A stretch of DNA of 64,000 bases from Candidatus Halobonum tyrrellensis G22 (GTDB lineage: Archaea; Halobacteriota; Halobacteria; Halobacteriales; Haloferacaceae). Position 1 is the stretch's first letter, and every line of letters starts with the position of its first letter. The notes under the pieces are model-generated. The model was given only the letters and a program-made list of their open reading frames with translations, had not been told where the DNA came from and ran no database searches. The stretch covers positions 1 through 64,000 of the forward strand of contig NZ_ASGZ01000020.1 of the NCBI RefSeq assembly GCF_000495475.1, in the 5' to 3' direction. The translations under genes and the position numbers were made by a program. Of the stretch, positions 11,360 through 54,958 are shown piece by piece.

Positions 11360-11459
11360 CGGTCGCAGGTGGGCGCCGAGTCGTATGAATGTACCACTCC
11401 CGCGTCGCGTCCGGGTTCTGAGCCGCCGCGCTCGGGTGCGCGCTCCCCCGCCCGGCGGC

Positions 11460-11873
11460 TCAGAACCCGGGCGCGGGGTCGTCGTCGAGCGCGCGCTCGA
11501 CCGCGTTGCCCTGCGGGCCGCTCAGCCGCTCGACGGCGGCGTCGGCGGGGAGCCACTCGTGGTCGGTGTGCTCGTGGCTCAAGCGCACCTCGCGCTCGCC
11601 GGCCGAACACGAGTAGTACACCGCGAACCGGCCGTCGTCGTCGTCGTTGCGCCACGCGAACGCGTGGACGGCGCCGGTCACTTCCGGGTTCAGCCCGGTC
11701 TCCTCCTCGATCTCGCGTCTGACGCCGGCCAGCGCGCCCTCCTCGGCGCCGAGGCGGCCGCCGGGGAGTTCCCAGCCGCCGTCGCTCGCCCGCCGGACGA
11801 CGAGTATCTCGCCGCGCGGGCCGAACAGGACGCCACGCTGGCTCACCGTCGCGTGTAGGGGGTGTTCCGTCAT
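11460..11873 (-). CDS. Nudix hydrolase coupled to mutS
   Basis: 137 residues. The full Nudix box G-x5-E-x7-RE-U-x-EE-x-GU is present at residues 39-61 (GGRLGAEEGALAGVRREIEE, then TGL). This gives a metal-dependent pyrophosphohydrolase of nucleoside diphosphate derivatives. Its ATG overlaps the mutS stop codon in an ATGA arrangement (11870-11873), so the two are translationally coupled. That context suggests a nucleotide-pool or DNA-damage role, such as cleaning oxidised nucleotides in a MutT-like manner, but the substrate cannot be read from sequence. Confidence 0.92.
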   Translation of the reverse strand: MTEHPLHATVSQRGVLFGPRGEILVVRRASDGGWELPGGRLGAEEGALAGVRREIEEETGLNPEVTGAVHAFAWRNDDDDGRFAVYYSCSAGEREVRLSHEHTDHEWLPADAAVERLSGPQGNAVERALDDDPAPGF

Positions 11874-20033: not shown

Positions 20034-20091
20034 GTATCCGATCCGATACCGCGGGGCGAAGGTATTTGCCACGCGACCGTCCCCGTCCGGT

Positions 20092-34108: not shown

Positions 34109-34303
34109 TCAGTCGGCGTCACCGCGGCGGTCGCGCCGCCGCGCGCGCCTGCGGTACTCGCCGTACGGGTCCTCGGGGTTGAACGGCGCGGGCGCGGAGT
34201 TGACCGCGTCGGCGCCACACCGGGGGCAGGCGTCGCCGAGCGTGTACACCGGCCGCTCGTGCTCCGTCTCCCACGCCGAACAGACCCTGATGTCGGACTT
34301 CAC
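34109..34303 (-). CDS. nop10: H/ACA RNP protein Nop10
   Basis: 64 residues: MKSDIRVCSAWETEHERPVY, TLGDACPRCGADAVNSAPAP and FNPEDPYGEYRR. Archaeal Nop10 is a small zinc-ribbon subunit of the H/ACA pseudouridylation RNP, working with Cbf5, Gar1 and L7Ae. Only one CxxC (CPRC) pairs with the early Cys here, as in haloarchaeal forms. It follows aIF2-alpha by 54 bases, the standard archaeal order. Confidence 0.93.
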   Translation of the reverse strand: MKSDIRVCSAWETEHERPVYTLGDACPRCGADAVNSAPAPFNPEDPYGEYRRRARRRDRRGDAD

Positions 34304-34357: not shown

Positions 34358-35158
34358 TTACTCGTCGTCGCTCTCGCGCTCGCGGTGGAACGACCCCGTG
34401 CCGCCCGCGGTCTCGATCGACTCGCGCGCGCGGTCGGCGCTGGCCTCCAACTCGTCTTCGGCGGTCTTGTAGTCGGGCGCCTGCACCCGGATGCGGTACT
34501 CGGGCGAGCCGACGTACGAGACGTCGAGTTCGGCCTCGCCGGGTACCTCGCCGTTCCCCTCGGCGGCCCCGAGCGCCTCCCTGATCGAGTCGACGCCGTC
34601 GGGGGTGGGACACGAGAGGTCGACGTAGCCCGTCACCGTCACGTACGGGACGGAGACGTTCTCGCGGGCGGTCGAGACGATCGCCTCGACGTCCGACTCG
34701 GGGAGGTCGGTGTCCTCCAGCGCCTCCTCGCCGTGGATCGCGGCCGCCTCGAACCCGTCGTACATCGAGCCGAACTCGGCGTACAGCGCCTCGGCGACCT
34801 GGATGTACTTGTCGTCGCTGACGTCCTCGCCGAACGCGAGCGTCATCCAGTTGTCCGCCTTGCGCTCGTTCTTCCACTCTTGGATCTTCTCCGAACGCTG
34901 GTGGTCGTTGACGTCCTTGATCGACAGGTCGATCTGTTGGGCGTCCTCGTCGACCTCAAGCACCTTCGCGACGACGCGGTCCTCGACGTCGACGTGGTCG
35001 CGGATGTTCTTGATCCACCCGCTCGCCACCTCGCTGACGTGGACCAGCCCGCGCTTGTTCTCGTACTCGTCGAGGTCGACGAAGACGCCGAAGTCGGCGA
35101 TCTCGTCGATCTCCCCCACGACGAGTTCACCCTTCTCCGGCCAGCCGCTGAATTTCAT
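34358..35158 (-). CDS. eif2a: Translation initiation factor aIF2 alpha subunit
   Basis: 266 residues. It begins [20 protein letters not shown] with an S1/OB domain ([35 protein letters not shown]), then the helical middle domain and the C-terminal alpha/beta domain ([20 protein letters not shown]). It is part of aIF2, which brings initiator Met-tRNA to the ribosome. The ATG at 35158 has a GGTATTAG element 28 bases upstream, so it does not depend on read-through from S27e, from which it is separated by an unusual 380-base gap. Confidence 0.97.
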
Positions 35159-35326
35159 ACTTCACGATCACGACCGCAGGCTAATACCGTTTCGGAACTC
35201 CCGGTCGGCCGACGGCGCCGACACGCGCCCGGCGGAGACGAGTTAGTTACCGGTGGGGAGATACCGAGTTCCCACGATGAGAGAGGAGTGAGCAGACTTT
35301 TTACGCAGTTTACACTCCGAACGGAT

Positions 35327-35500
35327 GGCGATCGGGAGTTCCTCGACCCCGAGGAGGTCGCCACGCTTCGTGGACACGCCCGCCCGGGAGGGCGGGCACG
35401 CGGATGCGGTTTCTCGGGCGGCGGACCGGGGCTGGATACCCCGGCCGTCGCCCGTCCGACACCACGCGCTCGGAGCGACCGGTGGGGCGGTCGCTCCGGG
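35327..35500 (+). ncRNA. Candidate structured non-coding RNA
   Basis: Four strong hairpins follow one another. (1) GGCGA...TCGCC enclosing CCTCG/CGAGG, 35327-35362. (2) GCCCGCCC-GGGA-GGGCGGGC, 35378-35397, a GNRA-capped perfect 8-bp stem. (3) A ~15-bp stem with one bulged A, 35416-35453, loop CTGGATA. (4) CGGAGCGACCG-GTGGGG-CGGTCGCTCCG, 35471-35498, an 11-bp perfect stem. A TTTTTA element at 35299-35303 lies 27 bases before hairpin 1, predicting a plus-strand transcript starting exactly there. No ORF is convincing. It does not match SRP, RNase P or a simple H/ACA guide that I can recognise. Strand and ends are inferred. Confidence 0.45.
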
Positions 35501-35540
35501 TCGACGGGCATCGCGAAGGAGAAGGCGGAGGGTGGCCGAC

Positions 35541-35717
35541 TCAGGCCCGCTGTTCGACCGTCTCGACGACCTCGCCCGCGAACTCGGCGTCGCCGCCGGT
35601 CGGACGCGCGAGCGTCGTCCCGCAGACGGCGCAGTTGACGACCGAGGAGGCCTTCCCGAAGACGACCTGTTCGTTCTCGCAGTCCGGACACTGGACGCGG
35701 TAGAAGTTACCCGCCAT
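35541..35717 (-). CDS. rps27e: 30S ribosomal protein S27e
   Basis: 58 residues, MAGNFYRVQCPDCENEQVVF, with two CxxC pairs (CPDC and CAVC) forming the S27e zinc ribbon. It binds the small ribosomal subunit. It starts two bases after L44e in the same transcript, the usual archaeal pairing. Confidence 0.96.
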   Translation of the reverse strand: MAGNFYRVQCPDCENEQVVFGKASSVVNCAVCGTTLARPTGGDAEFAGEVVETVEQRA

Positions 35718-35719
35718 CG

Positions 35720-36001
35720 TTACTCCTGGAAGACGAGGCGGCCGGCGCGCCAGCCCTCGCGCATGTGGGCCTTGCCGCAGTCGGCGCAGCGGTACTTGAG
35801 GTGGGTCTTCTTCGTGGGCTTGTCCCCGCCGGGCACCTTCGAGAACTTGCCGGCGTTCCCGATGACGGCCGTGCCGCGCTTCTGCTGGCGGTCGGTCCAC
35901 TTCATGCCGGTCTCGCGGCCGCGGCGGACCTTCTCGACCTCGTGCTCTTCGTGGGCTTTACAGAACGGACAGTACGTGTTCATCCGTCGCGGCATCTCCA
36001 T
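35720..36001 (-). CDS. rpl44e: 50S ribosomal protein L44e
   Basis: 93 residues: [20 protein letters not shown], then [20 protein letters not shown] and [20 protein letters not shown]. The CPFC and CADC pairs bind zinc. Near full identity with the known haloarchaeal L44e pattern. Unlike most genes here it is leadered: a TTTTAA element (36040-36045) puts the transcript start about 15 bases before the ATG, and a GAGGAG ribosome site lies in that leader. Confidence 0.97.
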
Positions 36002-54725: not shown

Positions 54726-54958
54726 GCGACCCCGACGACCGGCGCGGTCGCTCCGCGGTCGGAGCGGGCGCGTGCGGCGACGGTTCGGGGCATCTCGACC
54801 GACCGTATCGGGTGAACGTACAAAACGCTGTCCCGTCCGGCAAACGTTGCGCGGTCGCGGGTGGCCGGTGGCGCCGACGGGAGTAGCGTCGACGCCTCCC
54901 CCGCCGGCGGACCGGCGGACCCGCCGCTGGTCGGGCGCGTCGAACGCGGGGGGAGTCA

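Follow-up and report, generated by a model that had tools for sequence, protein, structure and literature searches.

The spacer between S27e and aIF2alpha

The window analysed here, a stretch of 64,000 nt from Candidatus Halobonum tyrrellensis G22 (assembly GCF_000495475.1, contig NZ_ASGZ01000020.1), is haloarchaeal, its nearest genomes by aIF2alpha being those of the genus that includes Halobaculum (82-86% identity). Its genome represents the sole species of its genus in our comparison set. Pfam searches identified four genes in the order L44e, S27e, aIF2alpha and Nop10, all on the minus strand, and the second and third of these are separated by a spacer of 382 nt (35159-35540).

35720-36001, minus strand: L44e gene (Pfam)
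35541-35717, minus strand: S27e ribosomal protein gene, stop codon 35541-35543 (Pfam Ribosomal_S27e, 1.7e-20)
34358-35158, minus strand: aIF2alpha gene (Pfam EIF_2_alpha, 2.9e-33, and S1, 1.8e-14)
34109-34303, minus strand: Nop10 gene (Pfam)

An earlier, sequence-only reading of this DNA had described a tight cluster split by a gap of about 380 bases. The comparison drew on the corresponding gaps of 80 named genomes and 30 unnamed ones. Measured against haloarchaea at large the description held, the gap being -7 to 36 nt in most of them; within this clade, however, a gap of 382 nt is ordinary, the spacer measuring 105-1,162 nt in the sister genera where S27e still adjoins aIF2alpha and being wide in most of the sister genomes that could be measured. 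In several others S27e was not found beside aIF2alpha within the stretch examined.

Promoters in the spacer

We trained a promoter matrix on 214 upstream regions of the organism's own genome, using EM with the known BRE/TATA consensus as seed, and obtained CG(A/G)AA plus TTWW, with a mode 38 nt upstream of start codons. Its top 20 sites in the 64 kb were intergenic in 19 cases and mostly lay 37-67 nt upstream of a gene start, which indicated that the matrix was specific. Two high-ranking sites and an inverted repeat fall in the spacer.

35195-35180, minus strand: aIF2alpha's own promoter, CCGAAACGGTATTAGC, 10.5-10.7 bits, rank 15, 37 nt before the ATG
35290-35305, plus strand: orphan promoter, BRE and TATA (TTTTTA at 35298-35303), 10.5 bits
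35285-35318, no strand assigned: imperfect inverted repeat GGAGTG...CACTCC centred on the TATA box, -11.3 kcal/mol, z -3.6

The first of these confirms the earlier claim that aIF2alpha has a promoter of its own, and each of the 13 wide gaps scanned in relatives likewise has a matching site, 36-37 nt ahead of the start codon. The plus-strand site is about equal to it in score (rank 17 of ~128,000 positions), and no gene start was found on the plus strand within 400 nt downstream. Its BRE matches weakly (GCAGA for CGAAA). The usual promoter-to-start offset in this genome, 37-40 nt, is also the offset from the orphan promoter to the first hairpin of the array described below, so that the predicted start of transcription, 35325-35329, falls where this hairpin (35326-35363) begins. 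The TATA-like element that had been noted 27 bases before the first stem is thus TTTTTA, lying 27-29 bases ahead of it and contained in the 10.5-bit match.

The inverted repeat around the TATA box is operator-like and may have a regulatory role. A second inverted repeat, GGAACTCCCGGTCG / CGATCGGGAGTTCC (13/14 positions; 35194-35207 and 35329-35342), flanks the divergent promoter pair; by a rough estimate its chance of occurring at random is about 0.03, and it is possibly a site for a shared regulator. Elsewhere in the window, other matches of high rank, at 20055 and 27714 on the plus strand and at 54834 on the minus strand, have no gene start at the expected spacing; they may mark unannotated transcripts or misassigned start codons.

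The hairpin array and its strand

The stretch 35297-35500 (204 nt) folded to -120.8 kcal/mol, with a z of -5.0 to -5.3 against dinucleotide shuffles. Among 319 equal windows across the 64 kb none was more structured (z -5.3, the runner-up -3.2). It ranked second among 3,864 windows from ~390 kb of the same genome, regressed on composition, a control that consisted of the starts of numbered contigs and not of a random draw. Strong consecutive hairpins, among them perfect ones of 8 and 11 bp and one with a GNRA cap, had been proposed here, and the fold recovered them as an array of five.

35325-35502, plus strand: candidate structured non-coding RNA, ~175 nt (z about -5; non-coding scores), 5' end predicted at 35325-35329, 3' end probably near 35502
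35326-35363, plus strand: hairpin 1, 14 bp with a 6-nt bulge, -20.2 kcal/mol, z -2.9 (minus z -1.7)
35361-35373, plus strand: hairpin 2, 5 bp, from the fold
35378-35397, plus strand: hairpin 3, 8 bp, perfect, with a GGGA (GNRA) loop on the plus strand, -20.6 kcal/mol, z -4.3
35415-35454, plus strand: hairpin 4, 16 bp with one bulged A and one G-U pair, -34.9 kcal/mol, z -5.0
35468-35501, plus strand: hairpin 5, 14 bp (perfect Watson-Crick core of 11 bp plus G-U pairs), -29.3 kcal/mol (minus -23.1)

Hairpins 1 and 2 share 3 nt and partly compete, and only one of them can form in full. Perfect hairpins of 8 bp are common in the window (49 in 64 kb, mostly within genes), and 11 bp is reached by only two. 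Since hairpin density was equal in spacers and genes (1.8 per kb), the spacers of this genome are not hairpin-rich as such.

The direction in which the array is read was approached through its asymmetries. All five hairpins are at least as stable on the plus strand as on the minus strand. The G-U pair of hairpin 4 reads as an A-C mismatch on the minus strand, and the wobble pairs of hairpin 5 likewise become A-C mismatches on the opposite strand. The GNRA loop, the wobble pairs and the energies of the individual hairpins all lean to the plus strand, the same strand as the orphan promoter. The asymmetry of the whole fold is weak evidence: 35325-35502 gave -118.4 kcal/mol on plus and -110.2 on minus, and this difference of 8 kcal/mol lies inside the background (sd 9.5).

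The main rival explanation reads the structure on the minus strand, as a structured spacer or 3'-end element whose hairpins help to terminate the L44e-S27e mRNA, shield it, or set it apart from aIF2alpha with its separate promoter, with no RNA gene of its own, and we consider it rather unlikely though still worth serious weight. The minus-strand fold is itself extreme (z -4.7), the strongest hairpin lies ~42 nt past the S27e stop codon, and hairpin-linked termination is known from Haloferax volcanii, where 503 of 1,543 termination sites had hairpins upstream and one hairpin, when tested, terminated with an efficiency of 59% (PMC7237163). Those hairpins resemble the present ones in being strong and close behind a stop codon; they differ in that here there is an array of five, no T tract after it, and an orphan promoter on the other strand. 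The T-rich 3' tract of an archaeal intrinsic terminator was sought and was absent after hairpin 5 on the plus strand. On the minus strand, a single pyrimidine tract, CTTCTCCTTC (35513-35522), was found, and it precedes the array; sister genomes, which need the same separation, have T-rich tracts just after S27e. This explanation leaves the orphan promoter on the plus strand, and its exact fit in distance, unaccounted for; an array of five hairpins spread over 175 nt is also more than a terminator needs, and the wobble pairs and GNRA loop favour the other strand. Hairpin 5 could possibly serve as the 3' end of both the candidate RNA and the S27e mRNA.

Coding potential and known RNA classes

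Codon scores of the six frames of the gap ranged from -0.30 to -0.74 per codon, compared with at least 0.28 for the genes of the window, and Pfam gave no match to any long frame over the gap, so the protein match on either strand that would have spoken against an RNA was not found. This bears on a further alternative, a leaderless small protein gene started by the same promoter at ATG 35325 or a nearby start. Leaderless transcripts make up 72% of those in Haloferax (PMC4983044), and this ATG lies 35 nt after the start of the promoter matrix, which is near leaderless spacing. The distance is nonetheless shorter than the usual 37-40 nt, the open frame continues antisense through S27e and L44e, and its codon scores are far under those of genes; we regard such a gene as highly improbable.

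Among RNA classes, Rfam returned no match on the gap at the gathering score, nor at E up to 5, and ARAGORN found no tRNA or tmRNA, in agreement with the earlier impression that no known class could be recognised. Archaeal SRP RNA (RF01857) and RNase P RNA (RF00373), which like the candidate are large, GC-rich and structured, matched other places in the genome (C10 and C57) and not the gap. The folds were also read by eye for the pocketed hairpin directly before an ACA that marks H/ACA guide RNAs, and none was seen: hairpin 2 does stand before an ACA but is only 5 bp long and lacks a pocket, and hairpin 4 has a bulged A alone.

The closest comparison is with the intergenic small RNAs of haloarchaea (Haloferax volcanii, e.g. 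s479; PMC4983044, PMC8155600), which are short non-coding intergenic units with their own BRE/TATA promoter. The candidate shares these properties: a BRE/TATA promoter of its own lies in an intergenic region and leads to no gene, and codon scores and Pfam mark the sequence as non-coding. It differs in being more structured than a typical antisense sRNA needs.

Homologous gaps in sister genomes

Apart from the aIF2alpha promoter, the wide gap differs in content between species, holding a tandem repeat, an inserted gene or other hairpin repeats. In one genome (L115) part of it is taken up by a 17-nt unit (GAGTCGGTTCGCTGTTC) repeated head to tail about ten times. Three Halobaculum genomes (L121, L122 and L123) carry a protein-coding gene inserted in it, which by its reading frame possibly encodes a membrane protein; these insertions indicate that the spacer tolerates them.

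The hairpins of the candidate were absent from the sister gaps, and the plus-strand orphan promoter was absent from nearly all of them, the exception being L123, whose 1,162-nt gap, which also holds the inserted gene, has one site of 10.2 bits. DNA searches and covariance-model searches built on the single sequence found no credible homologue in 171 genomes of the family or 392 of the order, and plasmids, phages and one IMG/VR pattern yielded none. The sequence is thus known from one genome, where it is single-copy. Two weak covariance-model matches outside the locus, L157 (E 0.008, in apparent protein-coding sequence) and L158 (E 0.07), were taken as chance, and the best of the weak matches inspected in sister loci lie in aIF2alpha coding DNA. 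The proposal of a structured RNA gene therefore came through in part: promoter, spacing, outlier structure, the lack of a coding signal and the lack of an Rfam match speak for it, and the unrelated contents of the sister gaps, mostly without a plus-strand promoter, speak against it.

Hairpin elements elsewhere in the genome

The same genome contains tandem hairpins of other kinds. An array 3' of purH (L170 8276-8500, G000:C12) proved to be a member of a dispersed family with the framework GAACCTCTTTT-[variable hairpin]-AAAACCCGTTCATGC. More hairpins often come after this framework, and the copies read start 0-30 nt past stop codons. Six strong copies occur in this genome (64-88 bits), those besides the one at purH being at G000:C59:6032, C13:71998, C28:61031, C44:22511 and C20:78211. 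Several genera of the Haloferacaceae carry the element: copies with the exact framework were found in ten genomes of four genera, G016, G002 and G004 contain further copies, and G006 and G009 gave weaker matches. We aligned hairpins 2 and 3 of 12 copies, chosen by framework and not by stems. In these, 98.5% of pair cells were standard and 13 of 22 pairs changed on both sides; two-sided-change cells numbered 37 against 9.5 in shuffles, a comparison that ignores kinship among the copies. One-sided changes to G-U were rare (3), and the scarcity of such intermediates may mean that selection or correction acts on the DNA. The family has no Rfam match and was not found in the literature searched, and it may matter more than the candidate RNA itself.

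A second dispersed repeat (..GCGCGCTCCCGGCGGGCACGGAGGCCCGCCGGCACGCGCC) has variable stems around a conserved ACGGAG loop, with several copies in Halobaculum genomes (S27e-aIF2alpha gap, L115-L118) and one in the genome of the window (L182 about 1450-1540, G000:C32). Other structure outliers of this genome were L167, L171 18000-18200, L163 7000-7200 and, in the window, 11400-11600, where a long, perfect-looking hairpin (GCGTCCGGGTTCTGAGCCGCCGC..) overlaps a spacer. Strong tandem hairpins in haloarchaeal spacers thus fall into several classes that are not related to one another. At least one of these classes is a dispersed family whose compensatory changes are clear, and in these genomes an array alone is no proof of an RNA gene.

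These elements suggest a third alternative, in which the array is a mobile or dispersed hairpin-DNA element, or the remnant of one, that settled in a permissive spacer and whose structure works at the DNA level. Hairpin elements are scattered through this genome, the same gap in Halobaculum carries a different dispersed hairpin repeat, and the gap behaves as an insertion hot spot, up to the whole gene in three Halobaculum genomes. Like the GAACCTCTTTT...AAAACCCGTTCATGC element, the candidate consists of tandem GC-rich intergenic hairpins near a stop codon; unlike that multi-copy element it is single-copy, which makes a dispersed DNA element less likely, and the two share no sequence. Scored with the family's covariance model R2 with filters off, the candidate reached at best 3.3 bits, where true copies reach 64-88, and was rejected as a member. 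Target duplications are absent around the array. We judge this origin to be quite unlikely.

A candidate small RNA gene

The explanation we favour is a plus-strand gene for a small non-coding RNA, specific to this lineage, and we give it about an even chance, judging from sequence. It is the most likely reading because three features agree independently: a top-ranking orphan promoter, its spacing to hairpin 1, and the most structured stretch of the window, which begins at that point. Such a gene could arise here because aIF2alpha has its own promoter in this clade, so that the spacer need not be short.

Transcription would start at about 35325-35329 on the plus strand and run for ~175 nt toward the 3' end of S27e, convergent with that gene, stopping at or just past the 14-bp hairpin 5, which would also shield the 3' end. 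The product would be a stable multi-hairpin scaffold with unpaired linkers and loops, and some of these, e.g. the GUUUCU before hairpin 4 or its CUGGAUA loop, might pair with mRNA targets. This targeting role, proposed by analogy with other intergenic sRNAs of haloarchaea, is the weakest step of the explanation and is doubtful. More speculative again, and in our estimate unlikely as a whole, is the picture of a young, lineage-specific multi-hairpin RNA gene in a spacer freed by the gain of the aIF2alpha promoter, forming a divergent promoter pair with aIF2alpha and possibly tying a regulatory RNA to the expression of translation initiation.

Should the candidate prove to be transcribed, an essential translation locus would harbour a heavily structured RNA gene of recent origin. 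The history of the locus would then run from a conserved tight cluster, through the gain of a promoter and the widening of the spacer, to the appearance of an RNA gene in one lineage and of different insertions in the sister lineages.
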